Assembly: GCF_014836875.1 (NCBI RefSeq) | Contig: NZ_JACSQC010000003.1 | Span: 232,619 to 296,618 of the forward strand | DNA: 64,000 nucleotides | Reading direction: 5' to 3' | Source of the DNA: Arthrobacter pullicola | Lineage (GTDB): Bacteria > Actinomycetota > Actinomycetes > Actinomycetales > Micrococcaceae | In this document: in pieces, positions 27,214-40,798 of the stretch | Layout: each line of letters starts with the position of its first letter | Numbering within the stretch: the stretch's first letter is position 1 | The notes under the pieces: model-generated | Seen by the model: only the letters and a program-made list of their open reading frames with translations | Told to the model about the DNA's origin: nothing | The model's database searches: none | Position numbers and translations under genes: made by a program

Positions 27214-28347
27214 ATGACCGTGCTGCGCGAAATCTGGCTCCGTCTGCGCGGCTCCAGGACAGCGCGCTGGCTGGCTGGCGCCGTCGTGCTGCTGCTGATC
27301 GTCGAGTATGTGGTCCTGCCGCAGCTTGTGGGTTCGGACAATGTGTTCCGGGCGCTGACGGGACTCTCACCGGTGCTCCTCGGTGCGGCTGCCGGCCTGG
27401 AAATCCTGTCCCTGTGCGCCTACAGCGCCCTGACCCGGGTGGTGCTGCCCGGATCGCGGCGCCCGCGCTACTTCACCCTGCTGCGGATAGACCTCAGCGA
27501 CCTGGCGGTAAACCACGTCGTGCCCGGAGGGGGCACCACCTCAGCGGCCGTGCGGTACAGCCTCCTGACGCGGGCAGGTGTACGGCCCCAGGATGCACTG
27601 AGTGCCGCGATGGTTCAGGTGGTAGGCGCGAACCTGGTGCTCGGCGCACTTTTTGCCGTTGGGATGCTGAGCGCACTGGGCGAGGTTCGGGTGAACCGGT
27701 ATTTCGTCACTGCCGGCGTCGTCGTCCTGCTCCTGCTGGCGGTGAGCGGACTGGTGCTCTCTGTCCTGGACCGCCGCCTGACCGGAGCAGTGCGGGCGGC
27801 GCGCCGGGTTGCCGGCTGGGTCAAGGTGGTCAAGCCGGACTCGGCGGAGAATTTCGTCCGGACCATGGCGGCGGAGACAGCGATGTTCCGCCAGGACCCG
27901 GGGCGGCTGGCCCGGGCATTGGTGCTGGCCGTCAGCTACTGGGGTTTCGACGCCGCGTGCCTGTGGACCTTTGTGGCCGCCTTTGGGCATGTGCTCGCAC
28001 CGGGGGAACTGCTGATCGCCTATGCGCTGGGCAACCTGGTGGCCCTGGCACCGTTGACTCCCGGCGGGCTTGGGCTGGTCGAAGGGGTCCTGGTGCCTGT
28101 CCTGGTGGGATTCGGCGCCCCGAATTCTGCCGCCGTCCTGGGTGTGCTGTCCTGGCGGATCTTCAACTTTTGGCTCCCGATACCGGCTGGCGGCCTGGCG
28201 TGGCTGTGGCTGCGGATGGGGCCGCTGCGCCGGACGTCCCCGCAGGGACGCCGGGCGGCCGGTGCACCCAGGGCAGCCGGTACACCCAACGGAGCGGATC
28301 CATCTGGTGATGCCGGTACAGCTAGTGCAGCAGGCTCATCCAGTTAG
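27214..28347 (+). CDS. UPF0104/lysylphosphatidylglycerol synthase-like membrane protein
   Basis: Integral membrane protein of 377 aa with about eight hydrophobic helices, related to the flippase domain of MprF/AglD (no synthase domain present). Family motifs: DLSDLAVNHVVPGGGTTSAAVRYSLL near residues 92-117 and NLVALAPLTPGGLGLVEGVLVP near 275. Likely substrate is a lipid or polyprenyl-linked molecule, but this is not shown by the sequence. The C-terminal 45 residues are a low-complexity Ala/Gly/Ser tail with AAGAPRAAGTP-type repeats. Its last 26 bases overlap the convergent zinc-finger gene. Confidence 0.85.
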   Translation: MTVLREIWLRLRGSRTARWLAGAVVLLLIVEYVVLPQLVGSDNVFRALTGLSPVLLGAAAGLEILSLCAYSALTRVVLPGSRRPRYFTLLRIDLSDLAVNHVVPGGGTTSAAVRYSLLTRAGVRPQDALSAAMVQVVGANLVLGALFAVGMLSALGEVRVNRYFVTAGVVVLLLLAVSGLVLSVLDRRLTGAVRAARRVAGWVKVVKPDSAENFVRTMAAETAMFRQDPGRLARALVLAVSYWGFDAACLWTFVAAFGHVLAPGELLIAYALGNLVALAPLTPGGLGLVEGVLVPVLVGFGAPNSAAVLGVLSWRIFNFWLPIPAGGLAWLWLRMGPLRRTSPQGRRAAGAPRAAGTPNGADPSGDAGTASAAGSSS

Positions 28348-28669
28348 GCGGTACACGCCCGGCTGGACCGGGCACCGGCTGGCTGTCAGGGTGTGCCTGC
28401 GGCGGGGCGAGGTCCGGGCCCTCGAACATGGCCTGCTCCGGATAGCTGTAGAACCAGTCCTCACCGGGTTCGAAACTGCGGACCACCGGATGCCCTGTTG
28501 CCCGTTCATGCGCCGACGCATGCTGCGAGGGGCTCGAATCGCAGCAGCCCACGTGCCCGCACTCGGCACACCGGCGCAGGTGGAACCACCAGCCGTCCTG
28601 CCCCAGGCACTCGGCGCAGCCGGGTCCGCTGGGCGGCACAGCCGGATTGATGCCTTGAATGGATTCCAT
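28322..28669 (-). CDS. UBP-type zinc finger protein
   Basis: Small protein of 115 aa made mostly of one ZnF-UBP domain. Zinc ligands are visible in CAECLGQDGWWFHLRRCAECGHVGCCDSS, followed by HASAHERATGHPVVRSFEPGEDWFYSYPE. ATG 28669 is supported by GAGGAG 5-6 bases upstream; the longer open frame to 28825 is not needed. In eukaryotes the fold binds ubiquitin tails; the bacterial stand-alone form is of unknown function. The 253 bases between this start and the next gene on the plus strand hold no other recognisable gene. Confidence 0.87.
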   Translation of the reverse strand: MESIQGINPAVPPSGPGCAECLGQDGWWFHLRRCAECGHVGCCDSSPSQHASAHERATGHPVVRSFEPGEDWFYSYPEQAMFEGPDLAPPQAHPDSQPVPGPAGRVPPNWMSLLH

Positions 28670-28909
28670 CTGTGGCTCCTCAGGGATATCAGACGCAGCC
28701 GCAGCCGTGGAAGGCGGCGCGGTGACTTGTCCCCACGCTATCGACTCTGCGCCGGGCGCTGAAGGGTGCCGGGATAAAACTGCCCGCACCGTCCTGCAGC
28801 GCCAGGAAGTTGTCTGCTGCGGCACATCGGTCCGTGAACCTCCCCACCCGGAGCCGCTGCCTCCCGCCCGGGGCCGCGGGAGAGCCCGCAGGGTGACTTC
28901 CGCCGCGTC

Positions 28910-28922
28910 CTACCCTGAAAAT
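28910..28922 (+). promoter_or_regulatory. -10 element of a predicted leaderless promoter (alpha/beta hydrolase)
   Basis: TACCCT (28911-28916 region) lies 6-7 bases before ATG 28923. Confidence 0.45.
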
Positions 28923-29978
28923 ATGAGGAACCTGCCTTTCGCGGCAGCGGGGTTCATGGCCGGAGCTGTGGCCGCAGCCGGCACGCTTGCCGCAGCTGTT
29001 ATCCACAAAGACCCACGACCGTCGGCTTTCTTCATCCGCGGGGTGTTTTCCAGCGGGGGAAGGGTCCGGCTGAGCACCCTGCGCAGGCACGTTCGGGCCG
29101 GGGGAGTCAGGGCCCACCGCGGCCTGCCCTATCTCGGCAGATCCAAACGTCCCACCCTTGATGTTTTCCTGCCCGAGAATGCCGGCGGCGGTCCGCTTCC
29201 CGTTGTTGTCTGGGTGCATGGGGGCGCCTGGATTTCAGGTTCCAAGGAGAATGTGGCCCCCTATCTGCAGATCCTGGCCGCGCATGGGTACGCGGTGGTG
29301 GGCGCCGGTTACTCAATATCCCCGGAGGCGAACTATCCCCAGGCCGTGACCGAGCTGAACAGCGCGCTGGCCTACCTGCGCGAACATGCGTCGGATTACG
29401 GCATCGATCCCGACCGGATAGTGCTGGCCGGGGACTCGGCGGGAGCGCAGCTGGCGGCGCAGCTGGCGCTGATGATTACTGACCCGGAGTATGCCCGGCG
29501 TACCGGCGTCGTTCCAGCCGCCGCGCGGGAGCATCTGCTCGGAACACTGCTGTTCTGCGGAGTCTACGATCTCAAAGCGATGGCACGGCTGAAAGGCGCC
29601 GTGGGCTGGGGATTCCGGACCGCGTTGTGGGCATATACCGGCAAGAAGGACTGGGCACGCACCCCTGCCGCGGAGCACATGTCCATCCTGGACCACGTGA
29701 ATCCGGATTTTCCGCCGACGTTTATCTCCGGCGGCAACGCCGACTACCTTACCGAGCAGCAGTCCAAGCCGCTGGCAGACAGGCTGGAGGAGCTGGGTGT
29801 GCAGGTGGTCCGCCGGTTCTGGCCGAAGGACCACAAGCCGTCTCTGGGACACGAGTATCAGTTCAAGCTGGAGCTCAAGGATTCCCGCATGGTGCTGGCG
29901 GACACCCTGAGGTTCCTGGATACCGTGACGGGAGGGCAATCGGTCCCGGTACGCTCCGAGCTGGAGGCCGCGGCGTAG
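28923..29978 (+). CDS. Alpha/beta hydrolase, esterase/lipase (HSL-like)
   Basis: Predicted esterase of 351 aa. The N-terminal hydrophobic segment (about 7-24) may be a signal anchor. The oxyanion motif is VVWVHGGAW near residue 97, the nucleophile motif is AGDSAGAQLAA with the Ser near residue 170, and the acid/His pair is suggested by FISGGNADYL and WPKDHKPSLGHEYQ near the C-terminus. It belongs to the hormone-sensitive-lipase-like/carboxylesterase group; substrate unknown. A further in-frame extension upstream exists, but ATG 28923 follows a good -10 and gives the natural N-terminus. Confidence 0.87.
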   Translation: MRNLPFAAAGFMAGAVAAAGTLAAAVIHKDPRPSAFFIRGVFSSGGRVRLSTLRRHVRAGGVRAHRGLPYLGRSKRPTLDVFLPENAGGGPLPVVVWVHGGAWISGSKENVAPYLQILAAHGYAVVGAGYSISPEANYPQAVTELNSALAYLREHASDYGIDPDRIVLAGDSAGAQLAAQLALMITDPEYARRTGVVPAAAREHLLGTLLFCGVYDLKAMARLKGAVGWGFRTALWAYTGKKDWARTPAAEHMSILDHVNPDFPPTFISGGNADYLTEQQSKPLADRLEELGVQVVRRFWPKDHKPSLGHEYQFKLELKDSRMVLADTLRFLDTVTGGQSVPVRSELEAAA

Positions 29979-30037
29979 GCCTGCGAATTGTCCTCGTGTC
30001 TGCCGACGGGACACAGCACCGGTTCCGGGAGTGCTTA

Positions 30038-30085
30038 AACGCTGCGGCGGCCGCACTCCCGTGGAGATGCGGCCGCCGCAGCGTT
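30038..30085. terminator. Long GC hairpin between convergent genes
   Basis: 18-bp perfect arms (30038-30055 and 30068-30085), loop of 12, between the hydrolase and the SDR gene. It has no clear U-tract but is well placed for bidirectional termination. Confidence 0.65.
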
Positions 30086-30089
30086 GTAT

Positions 30090-30878
30090 CTAGGACCAGA
30101 TGTCGTCGCCGCGCAGGGAGGCATCAGCGCCGCCGTCGCAGTAGATCGTCTGTCCGGCAAGGTGGGTGTTCTCTTCGCTGGCCAGCCAGGCGAGCAGGCG
30201 GGCGATTACCACCGGTTCCGAGTGCCCGTTCAGGGGCATGGGGACGTTTTCATCCACCATCTTGGCGCCTTCCGGCGCAGCCAGCAGTTCACGGGTCATC
30301 GCGGTGAGGACGGTGCCCGGTGCGACGGCGTTGAGCGGAATCCCGTTGCCGGCATACCGTTCACCGATGGATTCCCGGCGTACCCAGCGGCTGAGGGCGC
30401 GCTTGCTGGAGGGATAGTTCAGGTAGCCGATCTGGGGGCCCTGGTCAGCCAGCTTCTGGCCGATCTGCCGCGCCATGGCTTCGTCGCCGGCGAGCATGGC
30501 ATCCACGAGTTCGGGGGAGTTCGGCTGCAGGGAGGCCATGGAGCTGACGACGACGGCGCGCGGCGCCTCGCTGCGGGCCAGCACGGGAGCCAGCCGGTCC
30601 AGGAACTCGGTGACGCCAAAGAAGTTCACGGACACGGTCAGGGGGATGGGCGCGGAGATACCGGCGCAGGCAATAACGGCGTCAACCGAGCCGCCGGCGG
30701 CCTCCACTGCCCGGTCGGCGGCGGTCTGCCGTCCTTCGGGAGTGCTGAGGTCCGCCTCAACGTCTGCGTTGCGCAGATCGACGCCGATGACTTTGTGGCC
30801 GCGTTCCCTGAGCAGTTCAGCGGTGGCTGACCCGATGCCGGAAGCGGACCCTGTGACGATATAAGTACGTGTTGTCAT
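30090..30878 (-). CDS. Short-chain dehydrogenase/reductase (SDR)
   Basis: NAD(P)-dependent oxidoreductase of 262 aa. The cofactor loop TGSASGIG is at residues 9-16, ACAGIS near 90, catalytic Ser in VVSSMAS, and the active-site Tyr-x3-Lys as YPSSK near 158. The long insertion between Ser and Tyr (QPNSPELVDAMLAGDE) is as in the 3-alpha-hydroxysteroid dehydrogenase/carbonyl reductase subgroup. The C-terminal CDGGADASLRG is typical. Substrate not known. TAGGCT (30885-30890) 6 bases before ATG 30878 predicts a leaderless mRNA. Confidence 0.9.
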   Translation of the reverse strand: MTTRTYIVTGSASGIGSATAELLRERGHKVIGVDLRNADVEADLSTPEGRQTAADRAVEAAGGSVDAVIACAGISAPIPLTVSVNFFGVTEFLDRLAPVLARSEAPRAVVVSSMASLQPNSPELVDAMLAGDEAMARQIGQKLADQGPQIGYLNYPSSKRALSRWVRRESIGERYAGNGIPLNAVAPGTVLTAMTRELLAAPEGAKMVDENVPMPLNGHSEPVVIARLLAWLASEENTHLAGQTIYCDGGADASLRGDDIWS

Positions 30879-30890
30879 ACTTCGAGCCTA
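30879..30890 (-). promoter_or_regulatory. -10 element of a predicted leaderless promoter (SDR)
   Basis: TAGGCT on the minus strand (30885-30890), 6 bases before ATG 30878. Confidence 0.5.
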
Positions 30891-30960
30891 CTCCCGCCCC
30901 GGCTGTGGTATACGGGGGGTTTGTGGCTGTTGCCGTGGTGCGCGGGTCCATGATCAGGTG

Positions 30961-31902
30961 CTACCCGGAAGCAGCCAGCGGCAGGTCCGCGGCGGCCGGG
31001 ATGCGGGTGGAGCCGATGAGTGCCGCGCCAACGGCGGCGGCGGGAAAGCTGCGCGGCAGCAGCTGGACGTGACGCGGTAACTCGAGGGATGCGATAAATC
31101 TGGACTCTGAGGCGGTTTTGTCCAGGCTCCGCCGTATACCCGTCAGGAGCGGAGTCCCCAGGGCGGTCAGCCCACCGCCCACAACCACCGTTCGGACGCC
31201 TGTGGTGAGGGCCAGTATCCGGACGGCGGCGGCAGCGCCCTCGTAGAGATCGTCGAGTGCCCGGGCTGCTGCGGGGTCGCGTCCTGCCGCGGAAAGGAGT
31301 GCATGGGCGGGGAGGGACACGGGCCACGTGCGGGCAACTGCCGAACCGGATGCGAGTGTTTCGAGGCATCCCCGCTGTCCGCAGGCGCAGAGCACGCCGT
31401 TGGGACGAACCGGGATATGCCCAATTTCGCCGGCCACTCCGTTGCTTCCACGCCAGATTGTGCCATCCCGCACCAGGCCGGCCGCCAGACCGGTTCCGAG
31501 GTTGAGGTAGGCCAGGAGGTCAGTGCTCTGCCCGGTGGCGATCCCCACCCATCTGTGCGCCCCCAGGGCGGCAGCGTTTACATCGTTGTCGATGTGCACG
31601 ACGGCGCCCATGCGGGCGGCCAGCAGCGCTCCGAGGTCCAGTTCCTCGAATCCGAGGTTTACTGCATGCGAGACTGTGCCGGTGTGATGATCAACATGCC
31701 CGGGGATGCCCGCGCCGATCGAAGCGAAGGCATCAAACGGTTGACCACACGAGGCGCGCACCTTTTCGGCGGCGTCCATGACGGATCGCACCACCGCTTC
31801 TGCGCCATGGCCGGTGGGCACGGTGAACCGGTGCAGGATTTCACCCCCGGCCATTGCTACGGCTTCGGTCTTGGTACCGCCGATATCTATTCCGAGTCTC
31901 AT
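30961..31902 (-). CDS. ROK family sugar kinase
   Basis: Cytosolic sugar kinase of 313 aa, last gene of the sugar-salvage operon. The ATP-binding start GIDIGGTKTE, the sugar-binding HIDNDVNAAALGAHR with its catalytic Asp, and the ROK zinc motif CACGQRGCLE are all present. There is no DNA-binding domain, so it is an enzyme and not a repressor. Beside a NagZ-like enzyme the likely substrates are N-acetylglucosamine, N-acetylmuramate or glucose. Its start overlaps the GH3 stop by 4 bases. Confidence 0.88.
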   Translation of the reverse strand: MRLGIDIGGTKTEAVAMAGGEILHRFTVPTGHGAEAVVRSVMDAAEKVRASCGQPFDAFASIGAGIPGHVDHHTGTVSHAVNLGFEELDLGALLAARMGAVVHIDNDVNAAALGAHRWVGIATGQSTDLLAYLNLGTGLAAGLVRDGTIWRGSNGVAGEIGHIPVRPNGVLCACGQRGCLETLASGSAVARTWPVSLPAHALLSAAGRDPAAARALDDLYEGAAAAVRILALTTGVRTVVVGGGLTALGTPLLTGIRRSLDKTASESRFIASLELPRHVQLLPRSFPAAAVGAALIGSTRIPAAADLPLAASG

Positions 31903-33413
31903 TCCACCCCCTGCGGAAGCCTGCCCGTGAGCAGCTGCATCAGCGCTGTACTCACGAGACGGGAAGCGCCGAAGGTGCAGGCATCAGCAATACCCGGGTC
32001 GGCGGAGGGCCACCCCATCTCAACGACGATCAGGTCCACGTCCTGCCGGCGCAGGTTGCTGATCAGCTCCATGCTCTGCCGATGCAGGTGGAGATTCCGC
32101 CCTACCAGAGCTATCCGGGTGCCGGCTCGATGGGCCGGCAACCGGTGGCCGGGATCAACGATCCGCACGGCAATTGCCGGATTCCAGTCCGGTTCAAGCG
32201 ACGCGGGACCCCACGGGACGCTGCCCACGGCCTGGTTGGCGGTGCTGGAAAGCTGGTGAAGCTCGAAGGGGTGTGCACTGCTGCGCAGCCACTTCCGTGC
32301 CCGGGTATTCAGGCGGAACGCGGCAGCGGCCCGGGCAGGGTTCACCGGTAACCCGGAAGGGTGTCCGGACAGTTCTTCAGCGGGCCGGATATCCCGGGGG
32401 AGGAGGTTCAAAAGCCCGGCGGACCTGGTTCTGGCTTCTTCAACCCGCCGGAGCGGAAGTTCCCCCGAGCGCAGGGCCTCAGCAACTGCGGTGATCACGG
32501 CGTTGAACTGAGCTTCGCCCGTATCCGAGCCCAGGCACAGCAGATCGCACCCGGCTGCCAGGGCGCGGACCGCAGCTGCGGGGATGCCGATACCGCCGCT
32601 GGCTCCCTTCATGTCCAGGGCATCGGTGACGATGACACCGGTGAAGCCGAGCTGTTCCCGCAGCAGACCCTGGAGAATTGCCGTAGAGAACGTGGCGGGA
32701 TTGTCCGGGTCCAGGGCAGGCACCAGAATGTGGGACGTCATGATGGACGCGGTTCCGGCTGCGATGGCGGCTTTGAACGGTTCCAGCTCACGTTCAGCCA
32801 GAACACCCGGTGTTGCCTCGACGGTTGGGAGCATCAGGTGCGAGTCCTGGGCAGTGTCTCCATGGCCTGGAAAGTGCTTGGCACAGGCGGCGACGCCGGT
32901 GGATTGCAGTCCCTGTACCCAGGCCGCTGCATGGCTGGCGGCCAGCGGCGCGTTGTCCCCGAAGCTGCGAACCCCAATGACAGGATTGCCGGGGTTGGAA
33001 TTGATGTCCACCGACGGTGCCAGATCCAGGGTGCAGCCGGCGCGGCGGAGTTCATTGCCTATCGCGGCCGCCGAGGCAAACGTCATGCCGGGGTCGTCCA
33101 GGCGGCCGAGGACCGCGTTGCCGGGGTGCGGCGATCCGGTGTTGTAATGAAGCCGCGTGACGTCCCCGCCCTCTTCATCGATGGCGATGACCGCAGCGGG
33201 GTTCGCGCGGCGGATCGCGCTGGTAAGTTCCTGAAGCTGGGTGCCCGATTCGATATTGCTGCCGAAGAGACAGACTCCGGCAAGTCCTGACTTGAGTTCC
33301 CCGGCAACCCAGTCCGGCAGCCGGGACCCGGCAAAACCGGGAAGCAGGGAACCGGCCACCAGGGCGCGGATGTTCCGGGGTTCCAGGGCTTGGAGGTTCG
33401 CGGTGGCGCTCAT
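31899..33413 (-). CDS. Glycoside hydrolase family 3, NagZ-like beta-N-acetylhexosaminidase
   Basis: Protein of 504 aa without signal peptide, so it acts in the cytosol on imported sugars. The NagZ hallmark KHFPGHGDTAQDSH (flexible loop with the Asp/His acid-base dyad) is near residues 186-199, and the nucleophile Asp is in VIVTDALDMKGAS. Substrate contacts include AIDEEGGDVTRL and the SFGDN loop. A C-terminal alpha/beta domain (about 350-504) makes it a two-domain enzyme like that of Bacillus. It removes GlcNAc from muropeptides or chitin-type oligomers. Start and stop both overlap neighbours (ATGA). Confidence 0.88.
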   Translation of the reverse strand: MSATANLQALEPRNIRALVAGSLLPGFAGSRLPDWVAGELKSGLAGVCLFGSNIESGTQLQELTSAIRRANPAAVIAIDEEGGDVTRLHYNTGSPHPGNAVLGRLDDPGMTFASAAAIGNELRRAGCTLDLAPSVDINSNPGNPVIGVRSFGDNAPLAASHAAAWVQGLQSTGVAACAKHFPGHGDTAQDSHLMLPTVEATPGVLAERELEPFKAAIAAGTASIMTSHILVPALDPDNPATFSTAILQGLLREQLGFTGVIVTDALDMKGASGGIGIPAAAVRALAAGCDLLCLGSDTGEAQFNAVITAVAEALRSGELPLRRVEEARTRSAGLLNLLPRDIRPAEELSGHPSGLPVNPARAAAAFRLNTRARKWLRSSAHPFELHQLSSTANQAVGSVPWGPASLEPDWNPAIAVRIVDPGHRLPAHRAGTRIALVGRNLHLHRQSMELISNLRRQDVDLIVVEMGWPSADPGIADACTFGASRLVSTALMQLLTGRLPQGVE

Positions 33414-34276
33414 CCTTTAACCGCTCCTCCGACCAAACCGCTGCTCATCCTGCCCTGGACAAGCAGGAAGAAAATGATTACCGGGACGGCAACCAGTGTG
33501 GACGCCGCCATGACCTGGCCCCAATCCGTCTCCCGGCTCGCACTGGACTGCAGGAACCCCCGGAGCCAGAGCGGGATGGTCTTGGACGAATCGCTGGTCA
33601 TCACCACAAGGGCCACCGTGAACTCGTTCCAGGCCTGCAGGAACGCATACACGCCCGAGGCAATAAGGCCAGGAGCCAGCAGGGGGAAGGTGATCCGGAG
33701 GAACGCCTGGGTCCGGGTTAGTCCATCCACCATCGCGGCTTCCTCAAGCTCCACCGGAATACCGGTGACGAAGCCCCGAAGCATCCAGATGGTGAATGGA
33801 ACAACAGCGGCGATGTAGAGGACGCTGATTCCGATCACCGAATTAAGCAGGTCCGCAGTTGCCATCATCTTGTACTGCGCAATGAAGAGCCCTTCCGCCG
33901 GGAGCATCTGGACCAGCAGCAGTGCCAGGACAAAGCCCTTCCTGCCGCAGAACCGGAACCGGCTGATGGCTAAGGCGCCAAAGAACGCGAAAAGCAGGCA
34001 GCAAACCACGGTGATGGAGGTGACGGCCAGGCTGATCCCGAGGGCTGAGAAGAAAGTCCCGGAGGCGGTCACCGCCAAAAAGTTGTCCAAGGAGCCGCCA
34101 AACGGGGTGAATGTCGGGGTGGCGGACTGCAGGGTCACGTTCGGAAGGAATGCGGAGTTGAGCATCCAGTAGACGGGGAAGGCCCAGCACGCAGCTGCGA
34201 ACACCGCTACCGTGCCCCAGAGCCACGATGCGATTGCCGGTGGCCGGCGGCGGCGGGTTCCGGGGAGCACGCTCAT
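33410..34276 (-). CDS. Carbohydrate ABC transporter permease (CUT1, MalG-like)
   Basis: Inner-membrane permease of 288 aa with six transmembrane helices. The EAA loop that contacts the ATPase reads ELEEAAMVDGLTRTQAFLRITFPLLAPGL near residue 195. The upstream frame is open, but ATG 34276 overlaps the stop of the other permease and starts a normal basic N-terminus (MSVLPGTRRRRPP). It is the second of two permeases; no ATPase gene is nearby, as is usual where a shared MsiK-type ATPase energises several importers. Confidence 0.92.
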   Translation of the reverse strand: MSVLPGTRRRRPPAIASWLWGTVAVFAAACWAFPVYWMLNSAFLPNVTLQSATPTFTPFGGSLDNFLAVTASGTFFSALGISLAVTSITVVCCLLFAFFGALAISRFRFCGRKGFVLALLLVQMLPAEGLFIAQYKMMATADLLNSVIGISVLYIAAVVPFTIWMLRGFVTGIPVELEEAAMVDGLTRTQAFLRITFPLLAPGLIASGVYAFLQAWNEFTVALVVMTSDSSKTIPLWLRGFLQSSASRETDWGQVMAASTLVAVPVIIFFLLVQGRMSSGLVGGAVKG

Positions 34277-35250
34277 GCTGCACCGTCCTCTCGAATCATT
34301 CTGCGAACGTAGAACCAGCTGATGCTGAGTGTCAGCACCAGCATGAAAATTGAGACTGCGCTGGACATGCCGAAATCTCCTGATCCGGTTCCCAATTGAT
34401 GGATGTAGGTGCCCAGGAGATTGGTTTCGCTGGGAACGGATCCCACGTCCTGGAGGATTCTGATCTGCGTAAAAACCCTGAGGTCCCAAATGACCTGCAG
34501 GAGCATGACGATGGCCAGGACCGGCCGGATCATGGGGAGCATGATGTGGATAAGCCGCTGCCAGCCGGTGGCCCCGTCCAGCTGAGCTGCTTCCACTACC
34601 TCGTCTGAGACCTGGGTCAGGCCGGCGTAGACGCTGAAGGCAACGAACGGCACGCTCATCCAGATCACGATGATGGCCGCGACCAGGTAGAAGGTGAGGG
34701 GAGCGGCCAGCCAGTTGTAGCCCTGGAAGTCCAGCCCGGCCTGGGTGAGGAGCCAGTTCACGATGCTGCGCCGCCAGTCAAAGAGCCAGATCCAAACCGT
34801 CATGGCAGCGACGACGGGCATGGCCCAGGCCAGCAGCAAAGCGATCTGCAGAATGTTCCGAATAACTTTGGTGACCCGTTTCATCAGCAGGGCCAGCGCT
34901 ATGCCGACCGCCATGGTGGCGCCGGCACAGACCAGACAGAAGATGAGTGAACGGGCAACAACGGCCCAGGTATAGCTGTCAGTCAAGAGCTGGATGTAGT
35001 TCTGCAGACCAACGAATTCCGGCGGTTGGCCGAACTGCTGGGCCAGGCCGAACTCCTGCAGAGAGGTGATGACCTGCCAGGTCAGGGGGTATCCCAATGC
35101 TGCGGCCAAGACAAGAACCGCCGGGATCAGGAGAATATACGGCGCGGACCAGCCACGGCGGATCCTGCGGCGGGAGCGCCGCCCGGGACCTGCATCAGGT
35201 CCAGCTGCAGCATTCGATCTGGCAACAGGCGGGGTATGGACAGCCGTCAC
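34273..35250 (-). CDS. Carbohydrate ABC transporter permease (CUT1, MalF-like)
   Basis: Permease of 325 aa with six transmembrane helices after a 45-residue cytosolic Arg-rich N-terminus. The EAA loop is EVVEAAQLDGATGWQRLIHIMLPMIRPVL. I chose GTG 35250 since AGAAGGAGG stands 8-9 bases before it; a start at 35322 lies upstream of that site and is unlikely. It pairs with the MalG-like protein, and the 3' end overlaps it by 4 bases. Confidence 0.92.
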   Translation of the reverse strand: MTAVHTPPVARSNAAAGPDAGPGRRSRRRIRRGWSAPYILLIPAVLVLAAALGYPLTWQVITSLQEFGLAQQFGQPPEFVGLQNYIQLLTDSYTWAVVARSLIFCLVCAGATMAVGIALALLMKRVTKVIRNILQIALLLAWAMPVVAAMTVWIWLFDWRRSIVNWLLTQAGLDFQGYNWLAAPLTFYLVAAIIVIWMSVPFVAFSVYAGLTQVSDEVVEAAQLDGATGWQRLIHIMLPMIRPVLAIVMLLQVIWDLRVFTQIRILQDVGSVPSETNLLGTYIHQLGTGSGDFGMSSAVSIFMLVLTLSISWFYVRRMIREDGAA

Positions 35251-35339
35251 AAACCTGCCTCCTTCTGAGTTTGAGCCGGGTTCGACAGAAAGGGTGTGCG
35301 GTGCCAGGCTACAGCCCGGCACCGCACACTGAACTCTTG

Positions 35340-36695
35340 TCAGCCCTTGGCGTTCAGCATGGGAGTGATTTTCGCGTCGTACTCCTCGGCCAGGGACTTG
35401 AGGTCGTCTGTGGCGGCGATCTTGCCGAAGAACTCTTCGAGAATCGATGCGCCTTCCACTGCCGCCCAGCCCGGGGCCGCGGGGGTTAGCTTGGAATTCG
35501 ATGCCGCCTCCACCGCAATCTTGGCGAACTGATCGTCGCCGAGGCTGGACATGTAGTTCTGGTTGGCGGGGCCGAGTCCCGCACCACCGAGCATCGTCTG
35601 GTATTCCTCGGAGAAGATGATCCGCAGGAGATCCTTTGACAGGTCCTGGTTCTTTGATGCTGCGGAAATTCCGATGTTCGAGCCGCCGGCGAAGACCGGA
35701 GCGGGCTTGCCGTCATTGCCGGGAAGTGCAAAGGCGCCGAATTTTTCATCGTTCCAAATGCGGGCAGGCTTGCCGTCTTCGCCGGTTCCCAGATCGCCGA
35801 TGGAACCGTTGGCCCACCCCGGAGCCATGATGGTGGCAGCGGCAAGGGAAGTGCTGCCGGTGGGATTCCCATCGTCGTCGAGGATCTCATCGGCGTCATT
35901 GATGTAGAGCCAGGGGGTGACGTCCTTGGCATCGGCGGGTGCCTTCGACGCGTTCCGGTAGATTTCCTGCAGCTGCGTCAGGCCGGTGATGGTGTTGGGG
36001 TCAGCGAGAGCGGACACCCACTGGTCGCCGTCCTTGCGTGCCAGCTCGCCGCCGTTGGCGAAGACCCAGGAGATGCCGTTGCGCCAGTCCTGGCCGCCCA
36101 GGAAGAAGCCGGAGAAGTTGTCGATTCCGCGGGGGTTGGCGGCGGCCAGTGCCTGGACAGCCGCATTGAATTCGTCCAGGGTTTTAGGCTGCTCTATTCC
36201 GGCTTCGCTCCACAGGTCCTTCCGCTGGAACATATAGCGGGAGCCGAAGTAGTAAGGCAGGGTGTAGTTGGCGCCTTCCACCGCTCCGACCTCGACGAAT
36301 GACTGAAGCAGGTCGTCTCCGCCGAGCTCGTCGTACATGTCCGAGATATCGGCGAACGCGCCGACGTTGGTAAAGGTGGGGGACTGGGTGTTGCCCAGTT
36401 CGACGACGTCGGGAGTGTTGTTCGCGTCGGGCAGGGAGGTCGTGAGCTTGGTGACGACGTCACCCCAGGATTGTTCCTCAATGACCAGCGTGGCTCCTGT
36501 TTCTTCCTTGAAGGTTGTCTTCAAGTACTCACGGAGTTCATCGTTGGTGTCGCCGCCCGCCAGCCACAGCGTGATTTCCTGGCTGCTGTCAGCGGCGGCG
36601 TCGTTCGAGTCGGTTTCTGCGGCTCCCGAGCTGCACGCCGAGAGCATCAGCGCGGATGCCGTGGCGAGTGCCAGAGCCTTGTAGGTTCTTTTCAT
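35340..36695 (-). CDS. Extracellular sugar-binding lipoprotein (ABC importer)
   Basis: Solute-binding protein of 451 aa, family 1 (MalE-like). The signal peptide MKRTYKALALATASALMLSAC ends in the lipobox LSAC, so it is anchored outside the membrane. The mature part shows the fold typical of oligosaccharide binders, with EITLWLAGGDTNDELREYLKTTFKEETG at the start and VVELGNTQSP in the first hinge. ATG 36695 is chosen over 36731, since it gives a normal signal peptide. It lies between the ROK repressor gene and the two permeases in one operon. Confidence 0.93.
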   Translation of the reverse strand: MKRTYKALALATASALMLSACSSGAAETDSNDAAADSSQEITLWLAGGDTNDELREYLKTTFKEETGATLVIEEQSWGDVVTKLTTSLPDANNTPDVVELGNTQSPTFTNVGAFADISDMYDELGGDDLLQSFVEVGAVEGANYTLPYYFGSRYMFQRKDLWSEAGIEQPKTLDEFNAAVQALAAANPRGIDNFSGFFLGGQDWRNGISWVFANGGELARKDGDQWVSALADPNTITGLTQLQEIYRNASKAPADAKDVTPWLYINDADEILDDDGNPTGSTSLAAATIMAPGWANGSIGDLGTGEDGKPARIWNDEKFGAFALPGNDGKPAPVFAGGSNIGISAASKNQDLSKDLLRIIFSEEYQTMLGGAGLGPANQNYMSSLGDDQFAKIAVEAASNSKLTPAAPGWAAVEGASILEEFFGKIAATDDLKSLAEEYDAKITPMLNAKG

Positions 36696-36752
36696 GTGAA
36701 GCTTCCCTTTCGTCATTGAAATACCGGGCATGCGTTCGTTGCGGGGCCCGGG

Positions 36753-37928
36753 TCAGGCAACTCCAAGTTGCGCTGAAAGGACCATCACTGCGGCTCCGCG
36801 CAGGACGATGTCCTGGCCTTGGGTGGATCTCCGGAAACTGACGCCGCTGGTGAATTCGGCCAGCGTCCGCTCCTGGAGTGTTTGTGCGGCCGCGTCGAGC
36901 AGCGGGCCGTCAACAAGGTGGGGTGGCCCGTTGAGGACAACCTCGGAGAGGTTCAGCGCTCCGACTATCGGCGCAAGGGCAATGCCCAGCCGTTGGCCCG
37001 CTGCGGCCAGGACTGTCTGGCGCTGCGCGCCGTCTTTGCCGGAGAGTGCGGTTTCCAGGTTCGGGACGGACAGCCATGTTTCGAGGCAGCCCGTCTTCCC
37101 ACAGACACAGCGGGCTCCGCCGTCGGTGCCAACGGTGACGTGCCCGATCTCTCCGGCTGCGAAACGGCTGCCCAGCAGCGGCCGGCCGCCGACCACCAGC
37201 CCTGAACCGACACCGTGGCCAATTTTGATCAGCATCAGGTCATTCGAGGAGTTGGAAACAGCGCTTTCAGCCAGCACCGCCGCGTTCGCATCGTTGCCCA
37301 CCGTGACCGGCAGGCCGGAAACGCCGGAGAGAACTGCCCGCAGGTCAACGCCGAACCAGCCCAGGTTCGGTGCGGACTGGACGACTCCGTCGGCGTCGAC
37401 AACTCCCGGGGAACCGACCCCGACTCCCAGAACGGGTGCGGTAGCCAGCTGAAGGGTCTGGCTAAGAAGCGAAATGGTTTCTTCGAGGGTGCCTTCCCCC
37501 GGGCCGGCGGCCCGATGGACCTCGCAGCGTTTAAGTACGTTGCCGTCCAGATCCAGGAGCGCGCCCCGGAATACCGAGTGCTCGGCGAGGTCGAGGCTGA
37601 CAATCTGCAGCCCGCTTCGATTGATGTCCACCAGCATCGCCGGTTTCCCGGGCCGGGCTTCCTCACGGTGTCCGCGTTCGACGACATACCCGTTGGCGAT
37701 GAGTTCCGCGACGAGATCCGAAGCAGTCACCCGGGTGAAACCAAGTTCCCGGGCAAGGTCAGCGCGGCTGAGTTCCCCGTCCCGGTAGAGGGTTTGGAGC
37801 ACCAGTGCCAGGTTGTGGCTCCGCGCATGACCTGGCAGTGCCCTGGACTCTGGCTGGAACCCGGGCCGGGTGAGCCGTGAGCGCGTAGGTGCCGCGGGGG
37901 AGCCGGCCGGGAATTCTGGGAGCAACAT
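36753..37928 (-). CDS. ROK family transcriptional repressor (NagC/XylR type)
   Basis: Regulator of 391 aa. An N-terminal winged helix (about 38-90: LVLQTLYRDGELSRADLARELGFTRVTASDLVAELIANGYV) is joined to a ROK sugar-binding domain with VTVGNDANAAVLAESA, EIGHVTVGTDGG and the zinc motif CVCGKTGCLE. It heads the operon and probably represses it until the sugar or sugar phosphate is present. The promoter, -35 TTGTCA and -10 CATACT with 7 bases to ATG 37928, predicts a leaderless mRNA, and a palindrome in the spacer is a likely operator for its own product. Confidence 0.9.
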   Translation of the reverse strand: MLLPEFPAGSPAAPTRSRLTRPGFQPESRALPGHARSHNLALVLQTLYRDGELSRADLARELGFTRVTASDLVAELIANGYVVERGHREEARPGKPAMLVDINRSGLQIVSLDLAEHSVFRGALLDLDGNVLKRCEVHRAAGPGEGTLEETISLLSQTLQLATAPVLGVGVGSPGVVDADGVVQSAPNLGWFGVDLRAVLSGVSGLPVTVGNDANAAVLAESAVSNSSNDLMLIKIGHGVGSGLVVGGRPLLGSRFAAGEIGHVTVGTDGGARCVCGKTGCLETWLSVPNLETALSGKDGAQRQTVLAAAGQRLGIALAPIVGALNLSEVVLNGPPHLVDGPLLDAAAQTLQERTLAEFTSGVSFRRSTQGQDIVLRGAAVMVLSAQLGVA

Positions 37929-37964
37929 GTTTGAAAGTATGGTTTACAAACAAACTCCTGACAA
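37929..37964 (-). promoter_or_regulatory. Promoter and putative ROK operator of the sugar operon
   Basis: Reading the minus strand: -35 TTGTCA (37959-37964), a 17-base spacer (37942-37958), -10 CATACT (37936-37941), 7 bases, then ATG 37928. The spacer contains GTTTGTAAAC (37942-37951), an inverted repeat GTTT/AAAC, preceded by a second GTTT. A repressor bound there would block RNA polymerase. No other promoter is evident before the sugar-binding lipoprotein gene. Confidence 0.65.
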
Positions 37965-38089
37965 GGGTTTCCGGCAGGAGATTCTGATTCAGCGTGACGG
38001 GAGAGGGTGGGGTGCTGTGACCCTGGGAGTCCCTCCGTGCACATTCAGCGGGGAAACGGGCGCTACGTGGGTGGATAGGCGCGCCAACC

Positions 38090-38124
38090 ATTAGCTTAGA
38101 GCTAATACAAAGCTGACTATTAGC
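38090..38124. repeat. Overlapping palindromes after the SatD operon
   Basis: ATTAGCT-TAG-AGCTAAT (38090-38106) is a perfect 7-3-7 palindrome; its right arm also pairs with TATTAGC (38118-38124), across the stop codon of the membrane gene. Two mutually exclusive hairpins can form. There is no U-tract. Confidence 0.6.
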
Positions 38125-38974
38125 CGTTGTGGACGAGAGCCAGGTAGAGCACGGCGAGGGCCGACAGTGTCCAGCTGGCAAGACTGCCCACGAGGAATTC
38201 CTCCGCTTTGGAGCCCGTTCCCCGGTCTTCTGCAATTTCCGGGAACCGCACAACGCCCTTCGCGGCTGCGAGTGCGGCAATGATCTGTGGTGCTCCGGCG
38301 AAAGCCAGGACGACAATGAGCAGGCGTTCGATCGGACCAATGAGACGGCCGCCCTTGAGAGCTGGACCACGGGCAGGTTTTTCGCCGGCGCGGACGCTGG
38401 CCACCTGCCTGCTGCGGATAACCAACTCCCAGACGTTGGGCTGTTGTGTTGCCGCAGGGCTCGCTTCACCTCTCCCGCTATTCCCAGGGCGGGTGTCGTC
38501 CTGGTGGGCGCGGCCCAGTGCGGCAAGGGCGACGATGTTTGCGCTTCTGGTCAGGAAGACGGCAACAGCAGCAGCGGCTACGACGGTTTCCACGGAGACG
38601 GACGACGCAGATTCCAGGGCCGTGAGGGAGTAGGCATCCAGGAGGAAACCTGATGCCGACTGGGCCGTCCGGTCAAAAGCGGTGATTCCGAAAACCAGGA
38701 CAAACAGCACGATGACAGGCCAGAGCCGGGGGACGGCGGGGGAGGGGCCGTCCAGCCGGCCTTCCGTCGGTTTTGGTGCAGGCATGCTGAGTGTCCAGCC
38801 AAAGGCAAGGGCTCCACAGGCCGCTGCGGCAAGGAAGGGGATGCCAAGCCCGGTCATGACCAGCACCGACACGGCAGCGAGGAACAGCAGCCTGCCGGGC
38901 AAGGTGCGGCCAAGGCGCAGCCCGCCGGCGATATCCACCAGGCCGACCATCAGCAAAAGGGTTGAGCCGATCAC
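38120..38974 (-). CDS. Membrane protein, SatD operon partner
   Basis: Protein of 284 aa with about eight hydrophobic helices and a polar middle loop (about 175-205). The C-terminal module GRLIGPIERLLIVVLAFAG, then AALAAAKGVVRF and AEEFLVGSLASWTLSA, resembles, from memory, the C-terminal part of membrane proteins encoded beside satD in other phyla (DUF3307 group); the N-terminus does not. The start is GTG 38974, overlapping the satD stop by 4 bases. Function unknown. Confidence 0.75.
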   Translation of the reverse strand: MIGSTLLLMVGLVDIAGGLRLGRTLPGRLLFLAAVSVLVMTGLGIPFLAAAACGALAFGWTLSMPAPKPTEGRLDGPSPAVPRLWPVIVLFVLVFGITAFDRTAQSASGFLLDAYSLTALESASSVSVETVVAAAAVAVFLTRSANIVALAALGRAHQDDTRPGNSGRGEASPAATQQPNVWELVIRSRQVASVRAGEKPARGPALKGGRLIGPIERLLIVVLAFAGAPQIIAALAAAKGVVRFPEIAEDRGTGSKAEEFLVGSLASWTLSALAVLYLALVHNG

Positions 38975-39618
38975 CGCAGCATGCCCTTTGCCAGTTCCTG
39001 ATGCGCCGCCAGAAGCGCCGATGCACCCGAGCGCCGCAGGCTCTGCGAAACAGCCGACTGGGTAATCTTCTCCCGCCGCGCAAGTTCCGTTTGGGACACC
39101 CCGAGCAGGACACCGGCAGTTATGCGGCGGTCGCGCGGACGCATCGAACTGATTGACGCGTCCCGGAGCAGCAGAAAACCGTTGACCAGCGACACCTCAC
39201 CGGCGGCTCCAGCATCATCCGAAGCGAACCAGGACCGCAGATAGGGGTCCGCGCCATGCTCGCGGCGATGCGTTTCTTCAATGGCTTCCCGGGCATTCCA
39301 CCACGCTGGCCCGTCCTGAATAGCTCCCGGAGCCTGTTCGTCGACGTCAGACGTGATTCCTCGTCCCAGTCCAAATCTGCAGTCCACACCCTCCGGAAGA
39401 AGGAGGCGTACCAGCGTGGTTGTCAGCAGGGCATCACCCAGGGTGTGGAATACGGCTTGGAACTCGTCGCCGACGGTGGGCCAGAGCGGGCGGTATATCG
39501 GCCGGGCGCCGTGCGCCTGCCCGAACGCCTCGCGGATGGAGCGCTGCGCGCCGACCCGGTCGCTGAGTTCGCGCGATTTCACAATGTCGACGATGAGTGC
39601 GATCACGGAGTCCGGCAT
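38971..39618 (-). CDS. satD: SatD family protein
   Basis: Protein of 215 aa. The N-terminal part, ALIVDIVKSRELSDRVGAQRSIREAFGQ followed by PTVGDEFQAVF and CRFGLGRGIT, matches the SatD family; its Asp and Gly-Asp-Glu-Phe pattern recalls nucleotide-cyclase/GGDEF-like folds. The C-terminus has a helix-turn-helix, GVLLGVSQTELARREKITQSAVSQSLRR, so it probably binds DNA. The upstream frame is open, but ATG 39618 has -10 TATGCT 6 bases before it and starts with the conserved part. A 17-bp palindrome overlaps that promoter, which suggests autoregulation. Confidence 0.85.
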   Translation of the reverse strand: MPDSVIALIVDIVKSRELSDRVGAQRSIREAFGQAHGARPIYRPLWPTVGDEFQAVFHTLGDALLTTTLVRLLLPEGVDCRFGLGRGITSDVDEQAPGAIQDGPAWWNAREAIEETHRREHGADPYLRSWFASDDAGAAGEVSLVNGFLLLRDASISSMRPRDRRITAGVLLGVSQTELARREKITQSAVSQSLRRSGASALLAAHQELAKGMLR

Positions 39619-39638
39619 CGCATAAGCATATAGCTTAT
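39619..39638 (-). promoter_or_regulatory. satD promoter with palindromic operator-like site
   Basis: TATGCT (minus strand, 39625-39630) lies 6 bases before ATG 39618. The palindrome ATAAGC-ATATA-GCTTAT (39622-39638) straddles it, well placed for repression by the HTH domain of SatD. Confidence 0.55.
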
Positions 39639-39767
39639 TTGGGCACAAATATAAGCGTTTCTGCGCAAGTTTCTGATGAAACCTTCCGGTGTGCAGCGCC
39701 CGGCGAGAGCGGCGGACACTGTTACATGGAGCCCCCGCAGTCACTCAGGGGAGGCTTCCAGAATGTT

Positions 39768-39795
39768 AGTTGACATAATGTAGATTATCGGCGCA
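39768..39795 (-). other. dif: Chromosome dimer resolution site dif (XerC/XerD target)
   Basis: On the minus strand the site reads TGCGCCGATAA (XerC arm, 39785-39795), TCTACA (centre, 39779-39784), TTATGTCAACT (XerD arm, 39768-39778): the 11-6-11 layout of dif. The XerD arm and the GATAAT/ACATTATGTCAA core match the actinobacterial dif consensus as I remember it, and the E. coli site aligns in the same register. The site is intergenic, as expected. It implies that the replication terminus lies here. Confidence 0.88.
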
Positions 39796-39796
39796 A

Positions 39797-40280
39797 CGGA
39801 ATGCTGCCTGAAAGTGGCTCAGGCCACCCCCGGCTGCCGTTTGTACCAACCTTTCCGCAGCTCTGGTTTTCGCTCTCCGGACGCCTGTCAGTAAAGCCTG
39901 GGAACACTCCAGCCACCCTCTGCCGGACAGCACTGCCTGGCAGACCGTTTCCAGGCGGCGGAATCCGCGTGAGGACCTCACGTGTTTTTGCTCTCGCCCG
40001 AGACTGCGCTCCCTATCGATTTGAGTTGACATAACGTCCCCCGCCGCAGGTTGGGTGCGGTTTGCAGCTTTACATAATGCACACCATCCCCTGCGGGAAC
40101 ATTTCGGTGTGCCGGGCCGTTATACCGGGCGTTGACCTGCGGCTGGAGAGAGTCGTACCGCGGAACGACACCGTGGCCAGCTCCCCGGCAAGCCGTCCGG
40201 CGGCACCGCCGGACGCACCCGGCAGGCAGCTTGGTCACAGGCAGGCCTTATTCGGACGAATATGGCTCACAGAGAGTCGC
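39797..40280. other. Gene-poor interval next to dif
   Basis: Nearly 500 bases without a convincing gene. Two minus-strand open frames (39766-40032 and 39978-40238) have no recognisable domains or ribosome sites. The region contains the second XerD arm (40024-40034) and a weaker TTTACATAATGC similarity near 40069. It may be a scar of Xer-mediated integration or simply terminus-associated filler. Confidence 0.5.
40024..40034. repeat. Second perfect XerD arm (half dif site)
   Basis: AGTTGACATAA is identical to the 11-bp XerD arm of the dif site 256 bp to the left, in the same orientation. The next two bases after one mismatch (GT) also agree. The XerC arm is not recognisable. Confidence 0.7.
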
Positions 40281-40283
40281 CGT

Positions 40284-40314
40284 TTGGTGTGATCGGCAGC
40301 TTCACCTATATGAT
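40284..40314 (+). promoter_or_regulatory. Promoter of the DUF4193 gene
   Basis: TTGGTG (40284-40289) and TATATG (40307-40312) with a 17-base spacer; TATGAT (40309-40314) is an alternative -10. The transcript would have a leader of about 40 bases with GGAGATAA before the start. Confidence 0.5.
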
Positions 40315-40357
40315 CTACGCTCGAACCCCCCACAAATTCAGGAGATAAGCACTACAA

Positions 40358-40660
40358 ATGGCTACCGATTACGATGCCCCGCGCGTCAAGGAAGAAGACC
40401 AGCCCACCGACTCGCTGGAGGGACTGAAAGCCCAGCAGCGCGGCGGAGCGATGACGGCGGTTATCGATGTCGAAGAGTCTGACGCCATCGATGGCTTCGA
40501 CCTGCCGGGCGCTGACCTTTCCGGTGAAGAACTGCTGATCAAGGTCGTTCCGGCCCAGGCTGACGAATTCACCTGCATGTCCTGCTTCCTCGTCCGTCAC
40601 CGTTCGCAGGTGGCACGGGAGAAGAACGGCGATAAGTACTGCGTGGACTGCGAAGGCTAG
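40358..40660 (+). CDS. DUF4193 protein
   Basis: Small acidic protein of 100 aa conserved in actinobacteria. The N-terminus (MATDYDAPRVKEEDQPTDSLEGLK) and a C-terminal pair of CxxC motifs, CMSC near residue 74 and CVDC near 95, define the family; four cysteines suggest a zinc ribbon. Function unknown. The ribosome site GGAG is 14 bases upstream. It is monocistronic, with its own promoter and a strong terminator downstream. Confidence 0.9.
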   Translation: MATDYDAPRVKEEDQPTDSLEGLKAQQRGGAMTAVIDVEESDAIDGFDLPGADLSGEELLIKVVPAQADEFTCMSCFLVRHRSQVAREKNGDKYCVDCEG

Positions 40661-40685
40661 CGGCACTCCCCCGCACACAGTGCAC

Positions 40686-40723
40686 AAAACAGGCCCGGGC
40701 AGAAATGCCCGGGCCTGTTTTTT
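40686..40723. terminator. Intrinsic terminator after the DUF4193 gene
   Basis: A 16-bp stem (40686-40701 with 40706-40721), GAAA tetraloop, and a run of T residues. Confidence 0.92.
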
Positions 40724-40798
40724 CCGGTCCGCTTTGGGCCAGTCTCCCCTGGGGTACTGCGTCCGAAGAAGTCCAGCAGCAGGAAACCCGGCGGCCAT

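Follow-up and report, generated by a model that had tools for sequence, protein, structure and literature searches.

A chromosomal dif site accompanied by a one-sided array of XerD-type half-sites in Arthrobacter pullicola

Introduction

XerC and XerD, controlled by FtsK, resolve chromosome dimers at dif. Two terminus functions of XerD are known, namely this recombination and the unloading of SMC, the latter in Bacillus subtilis. From papers citing the 2021 work of Karaboja et al., B. subtilis XerD is said to unload SMC near the terminus at XerD sites. As far as these partial accounts go, the locus shares with the B. subtilis sites a XerD-type recognition sequence outside a full site and a terminus-region location, and SMC is encoded here too; unlike them, the half-sites here are crowded 235-477 bp from dif and in a single orientation. 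The plasmid sites cer and psi likewise pair a core Xer site with accessory DNA nearby, but in the accessible part of the source the accessory DNA of cer binds ArgR and PepA (PMC5357621), whereas here it repeats the XerD arm.

The closest described system is the actinobacterial chromosomal dif/XerCD system (Kono et al. 2011, PMC3025954), with which our locus, judged against the accessible part of that paper, has in common a length of 28 bp, an 11-6-11 layout, a single copy, an intergenic and origin-opposite position and the convergence of polar motifs. That part of the paper treats the 28-mer alone and describes no flanking half-sites, and in this the array here differs.

Here, we propose, with a probability of roughly 0.8, that the locus is a dif site with an accessory array of XerD-only half-sites, probably forming a non-recombining XerD platform at the terminus. 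The sequence establishes dif, the convergence of polar motifs there, the array, its polarity and its conservation; the assignment of a function to the array is argued from these. XerD half-site arrays beside a chromosomal dif were unreported in the open-access literature that we searched (most subscription papers lay outside the search).

Results and discussion

A chromosomal dif site of the known kind

The 28-mer at 39768..39795 of the window (the whole 64,000-nucleotide stretch of DNA analysed), read on the minus strand as XerC arm, centre and XerD arm, is by its sequence a chromosomal dif site, at which linked chromosome copies of this soil bacterium would be separated. The first-pass annotation had described a 28-bp XerC/XerD site with an 11-6-11 layout, and sequence, coordinates and layout all proved exact: the minus strand reads TGCGCCGATAA TCTACA TTATGTCAACT and the plus strand AGTTGACATAA TGTAGA TTATCGGCGCA. 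Following the usual dif convention, we take TGCGCCGATAA (39785..39795, minus strand) to be the XerC arm and AGTTGACATAA (39768..39778, plus strand; TTATGTCAACT on the minus strand) to be the XerD arm, both delimited by the 11-6-11 layout. The claimed likeness to actinobacterial dif, with arms resembling known ones, was borne out: 23 of the 28 positions are the same as in the dif of Frankia alni and 5 differ, going by the part of Kono et al. 2011 (PMC3025954) that was available, in which the XerD arm is also the more conserved of the two. The site is intergenic, as had been stated, lying between a SatD-domain open reading frame (38971..39744, minus strand), whose uncertain start codon is no further right than 39744, and, to the right, the nearest conserved frame, ending at 40352.

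When the arms and their spacing were searched with the centre left free and up to three mismatches, the window held one match, against a mean of 0.00 in 100 dinucleotide shuffles. The suggested copy-number check gave the same answer genome-wide (3,624,836 bases in 15 contigs, 99.99% complete), where the 28-mer is single at up to three mismatches and its reversed-pattern control has no match. It recurs once, at the same threshold, in 27 of the 29 genomes of the genus (the present one included), and the other two (G008 and G024) carry the dif variant TTTACATAATGTAGATTATCGG, so that the comparison with related Arthrobacter genomes, also proposed earlier, upheld the site; no second dif at up to three mismatches was found among the 29. 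Across the family, a 22-base dif core is present at up to one mismatch in 231/245 genomes.

The first-pass annotation had expected the site to lie opposite the origin and near a GC-skew extreme, and the first part of this was upheld in congeners. We found dnaA in 14/14 genomes searched, the present one among them; it opens the chromosome contig in 12 congeners and lies elsewhere in G003, and in all 13 congeners with a one-contig chromosome the distance of dif from dnaA is 0.47-0.56 of the chromosome. The GC skew of the window, weak and noisy, changes sign near 20 kb and not at 39.8 kb. As proof of a terminus GC skew was rejected, being about zero along the genome's own contig (16 sampled stretches) and weak in the congener G028 (20 sampled stretches). 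A change of gene orientation at the site had also been claimed, but long open reading frames do not switch strand at dif: those on the minus strand lie at 20-25.6 and 31-43.6 kb, those on the plus strand at 25.8-30 and 43.7-48 kb. Both arguments are weak and add little to the dif call. What supports a chromosomal dif at the terminus is its single copy, its recurrence in genus and family, its place opposite dnaA in congeners and the polar-motif switch described below. The dif itself is ordinary, of a known and predicted kind.

Other family genera also showed second dif-like sites with a changed central 6 bp, the majority of them on small contigs (L305-L317, from G179, G167, G228, G183, G145, G195, G172, G046, G129, G050, G144 and G109); these are probably plasmid or mobile-element Xer sites.

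Polar motifs converge on dif

An independent test of dif as the terminus came from another genome. Octamers of the congener G028 were ranked by strand bias in the origin-to-terminus direction, and the highest, CGGGGGAG, had a strand ratio of 34:1 along one chromosome arm and of 22:0 along the second. It was then tested in the contig that carries the window, which had played no part in its discovery (16 stretches, 320 of 560 kb), and there it lies on the plus strand in 29/29 cases left of dif and on the minus strand in 19/19 right of it (48/48). The interval in which the strand switches, C9:271355-273284, contains dif at 272386, and all 75 copies in 13 congener flanks obey the same polarity. 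Dif is thus a point on which KOPS-like polar motifs converge.

The shorter form RGGGGAG behaves likewise. Its 30 sites in the window, spanning 1681-63348, all point to dif, with 21/21 on the plus strand to the left and 9/9 on the minus strand to the right; the nearest on the left is at 39747..39753 (plus strand), and the first beyond dif and the array, pointing back, is at 40666..40672 (minus strand). Among the 6906 7-mers counted at least 30 times in the own contig, GGGGGAG (71:0) and AGGGGAG (31:0) take the top two places for polarity; in G028 they stand at 96:3 and 31:4. Around the dif loci of the 29 genus genomes, GGGGGAG points toward dif 61 times and away once (RGGGGAG: 90 and 2), and around 84 dif loci of other genera of the family GGGGGAG does so 219 times and never points away. 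Among the matches listed, RGGGGAG is directed toward dif 83 times and away 3 times at 18 named family loci, and 374 and 9 times at 62 named loci outside the family, where its two forms head 5084 7-mers.

We infer that RGGGGAG is the motif read by FtsK, a candidate KOPS. In the partial descriptions that we compared, KOPS and AIMS are also strand-polar toward dif and switch there, but the sequence of RGGGGAG differs from GGGNAGGG, the KOPS of Vibrio cholerae and enterobacteria. The counts outside the family (374:9, among the matches listed) would make it a strong candidate FtsK guide sequence for Actinomycetota. No report of RGGGGAG was found in the open-access literature (most subscription papers were outside the search).

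A one-sided array of XerD half-sites

The first-pass annotation made no mention of the XerD half-sites that stand 256-310 bp to the right of dif in the window. Satellite 1 (40024..40034, plus strand) reproduces the XerD arm letter for letter but lacks a XerC arm, and is followed by CGTCCCCC; satellite 2, GCTTTACATAA (40067..40077, plus strand), lies 43 bp after satellite 1, and relatives use its core, TTTACATAA, in their dif arms too. The 3.62-Mb genome has two exact matches to the XerD arm AGTTGACATAA, one in dif and one at 40024-40034. Its generalised form GTTGACATAAY occurs exactly at four places, two at the dif locus and two on other contigs, and at one mismatch there are 17 more matches against 9 for the reversed control. 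Like XDS-type sites, the satellites are a XerD-type recognition sequence without a full dif.

Extra XerD arms lacking a XerC arm are present in 29/29 genus genomes at +235 to +477 from dif, all in dif orientation and all on the XerC-arm side, with the first at +235 to +320 in every genome. Exact satellites number one in 1 genome, two in 16, three in 3 and four in 9; with one mismatch allowed there are two in 10 genomes and four in 19, never one or three. Within pairs, the spacing is 42-46 bp in 34/48. A 29-locus alignment has dif and the first two satellites as its main conserved blocks, satellites 3 and 4 aligning poorly, with weaker patches immediately to the left of dif and close to the following gene. 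The spacings of the satellites give a mean vector of 0.46 at period 11 (20 distinct, non-independent spacings), which is no more than suggestive of helical phasing. An array of XerC half-sites was looked for and rejected, matches resembling the XerC arm being scattered over both strands and sides.

Could this be an ordinary dif with half-sites lying nearby by chance? The motif is short, and some genera show just one exact copy near dif. The counts contradict chance, however. At 200-700 bp from dif in the 29 genomes, 78 copies of TTKACATAA stand on the XerC side in dif orientation and none on the other strand or side; with one mismatch the figures are 96 and 0, and the reversed motif gives single hits in three of the four combinations of side and strand. 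Flanks of 20 kb from 13 congeners hold 36 copies of the core at +200 to +500, against 0 for the reversed-motif control, and not one in the other 256,087 bases per strand with dif excluded. The 29 whole genomes together contain GTTGACATAAC 60 times; 43 of these copies lie within 0.6 kb of dif, and the reversed pattern is found 3 times. We therefore consider chance placement next to inconceivable.

Shared gene order could explain part of the shared position of the array, but not the keeping of its letters in diverged DNA. To the right, in the dif frame, come a 148-aa open reading frame (40352..40798, minus strand, its 3' end facing the array; no Pfam or NCBIfam match), which adjoins the array in 13/13 congener flanks, and then an S9 peptidase, an RlmA-like methyltransferase and a Band-7 protein, a flank found in the same 13/13 and recurring in part in 3/5 flanks from other genera. 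Relative to dnaA, dif and the array face one way in 6/13 congeners and the other way in 7/13, and the place of the array is thus tied to dif and its right-hand neighbours and not to a replichore. On the left, the SatD-domain frame has no match in the 13 congener flanks (about +-10 kb), 8/13 have the frame at 30090-30878, placed at -4 to -8 kb, 1/13 has that at 28659-29978, and no other left-hand frame recurs. The XerD-side flank (28000-39744 in the window) varies among congeners, whereas conservation on the XerC side extends for some 10 kb.

A variable flank on the XerD side might be expected if the half-sites were scars of Xer-mediated, IMEX-like insertions whose XerC arms had been lost, and the second dif-like sites with changed centres in other family genera show that such material exists. 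We nevertheless hold this origin to be very improbable, for the letters, number and rough position of the satellites are kept in 29 species while the DNA between them diverges, and no second dif at up to three mismatches occurs in the 29 genomes.

The letters of the satellites themselves bear on which protein reads them. In a set of 111 satellites collected at up to one mismatch (96 from the genus and 15 from other genera), conservation spans the 11-bp XerD arm and largely stops there, save for a C/T preference one base further on. The cores are TTGACATAA (78), TTTACATAA (15), TTGTCATAA (8), CTGACATAA (5), ATGACATAA (3), CTTACATAA (1) and TTAACATAA (1), and the last five core bases are invariant in all 111, though a mismatch was allowed anywhere. 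Dif cores at 113 loci, where ACATAA was fixed in the search pattern, are TTGACATAA (78), TTTACATAA (30), CTGACATAA (3) and TTAACATAA (2); a freer search of the family adds, among the matches listed, ATGACATAA (G094 and G175) and one TTGACGTAA (G031). The satellite variants TTT, CTG, ATG and TTA (for TTG) thus also serve as dif arms in the family, and TTGTCATAA, with 8/111 satellites, was not found as a dif arm among the matches listed, a comparison limited by the near fixation of ACATAA in the collected dif loci.

A different DNA-binding protein, for instance a transcription factor or one acting at the terminus, might recognise GTTGACATAAC, its likeness to the XerD arm then being accidental or borrowed, but we judge this improbable. 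Two observations would suit such a protein. Directly after the core, 77% of satellites have C, and dif loci have T (which was fixed in the search); and TTGACATAAC recurs at a conserved locus of promoter-like character well away from dif, in which TTGACA could act as a -35 box. That locus emerged from a search for STTGACATAAY in 40 genomes of other genera, 32 of which had a match; the copies beyond dif are single and mostly hundreds of kb away, the near ones including those of G184 (+1.3 kb) and G183 (+3.6 kb). Fifteen of 18 far stretches (L322-L327, L329-L332 and L335-L339) represent a single homologous locus; there the 11-mer begins a sequence like that of a promoter or operator, of the type TTGACATAAC..AACC.TCAA..TTGAGGGTTAAGG, which may be a MerR/SoxR-like operator. 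The other three far stretches and the two far copies in the present genome are unrelated to this locus and to each other. A spread of XerD sites through the terminus of other genera was rejected, the far copies being single and 15 of 18 belonging to the one promoter-like locus.

Against another reader of the satellites stand their sharing of an arm with a dif some 250 bp away, the confinement of conservation essentially to that arm, and variants that are largely common to both; the operator-like sequence of the far locus is missing after the satellites. Nor does the array look like a promoter: TANNNT was not found 15-19 bp after TTGACA in any of the 111 satellites, a test blind to promoters without such a box, and on this the promoter reading of TTGACA was rejected. 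There is no conserved divergent gene and no Rfam match in 39500-40700. The array has no conserved promoter: the gene on the right is convergent and that on the left is not conserved.

What might the array do?

The genome encodes XerD, above the model cut-off, a XerC-like protein (best model TIGR02224, 317 bits, just under its cut-off of 335), an FtsK gamma domain and SMC. The likeness of the satellites to the XerD arm of dif argues that XerD is very probably what binds them. At dif, XerC and XerD would act together in FtsK-controlled dimer resolution, and beside it, on the XerC-arm side, would stand an accessory array of half-sites, two here and two or four in the genus. The satellites should be unable to recombine because they are without a XerC arm; XerD alone would occupy them, giving a non-recombining XerD platform at the terminus that is close in principle to the B. 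subtilis sites at which XerD unloads SMC. Such XerD-only docking sites may unload SMC or guide FtsK, and of these, that the platform serves SMC unloading is a tentative suggestion to which we give a little under even odds.

Control of FtsK and Xer by the platform is somewhat less likely. In that case the array would be an accessory element of the FtsK/Xer system in which FtsK, arriving from the XerC side, meets XerD-bound satellites before dif, XerD thus being offered on this side as well. Satellite 1, which in most cases runs straight into a GGGGGA-type motif directed toward dif, would then carry an FtsK loading signal next to XerD. The usual continuation of satellite 1 is YGTCCCCC, with TCCCCC next in 22/27 distinct sequences, and at L009, L014, L016 and L017 the tail is the polar motif itself, CTCCCCC; the array keeps to the XerC side throughout the genus though dif faces either way relative to dnaA (6/13 and 7/13); and FtsK gamma, in the accessible part of the source, uses the same surface for KOPS and XerD (PMC5052618). 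On the other hand, the same part of that source has FtsK gamma unable to hold KOPS and XerD simultaneously (PMC5052618), the tail seen most often, GGGGGAC, has just a mild polarity (23:8 and 38:10), and most other family loci have the polar motif without an array.

Returning to the XerD platform, we offer, with confidence well short of even, a more complete picture of a terminus module composed of inward-pointing FtsK signals, dif and one-sided paired XerD half-sites, the first fused to a GGGGGA-type motif, in which XerD would be held on the XerC side for SMC unloading and for a handover of FtsK from DNA to XerD. If true, the array would be an accessory element of a new type in chromosomal Xer recombination. 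A compact natural array beside dif in a non-model phylum would also allow the two jobs of XerD to be separated by deleting a few hundred bases.

Distribution beyond the genus

Half-sites near dif thin out beyond the genus, and the array is a lineage trait that is fullest in the genus of the window. From 228 family genomes of other genera, 84 loci were examined. An exact core lies 200-700 bp from dif in 22 of them: in 15 it is on the XerC side and oriented like dif, in 3 it is on the XerD side, and in 3 and 1 the orientation is opposite. One genus (g23) has the array core in 4/4; in another (g13) the half-site is inverted in 3/3 (L211-L213; also G131); and a third (g7, L249-L251) has one half-site, with TCGAC after it, at -195 to -206 on the XerD side. 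Thirteen of the second dif-like sites were also examined, and an array on them was rejected: 10 have no other core in their stretch, and the remaining cores are inverted, abutting the site in L306 and single at +978 and +697 in L309 and L310.

A further 80 named loci were taken from at least 119 stretches found. Among the matches listed, a core lies no more than 2 kb from dif in 10/18 of those in the family, several others being short-flanked, and Arthrobacter sp. zg-Y769 (L090) seems by its array to be close to the genus of the window. Outside the family, among the matches listed, 0/62 have a core within 1 kb (46/62 have both flanks of at least 1 kb, 16/62 a flank below 1 kb), and only three Jiangella loci have one within 2 kb: L067 at +1182, L086 at +1062 and L112 at +1604, each with a single core on the XerC side in dif orientation, possibly an independent case. 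Two Nocardiopsis loci carry a one-mismatch form on the other side of dif. As a separate observation, a locus labelled Bacillus sp. AZ43 (L064, flagged UNVERIFIED_ORG) has an actinobacterial dif and the polar motif, and its label looks wrong.
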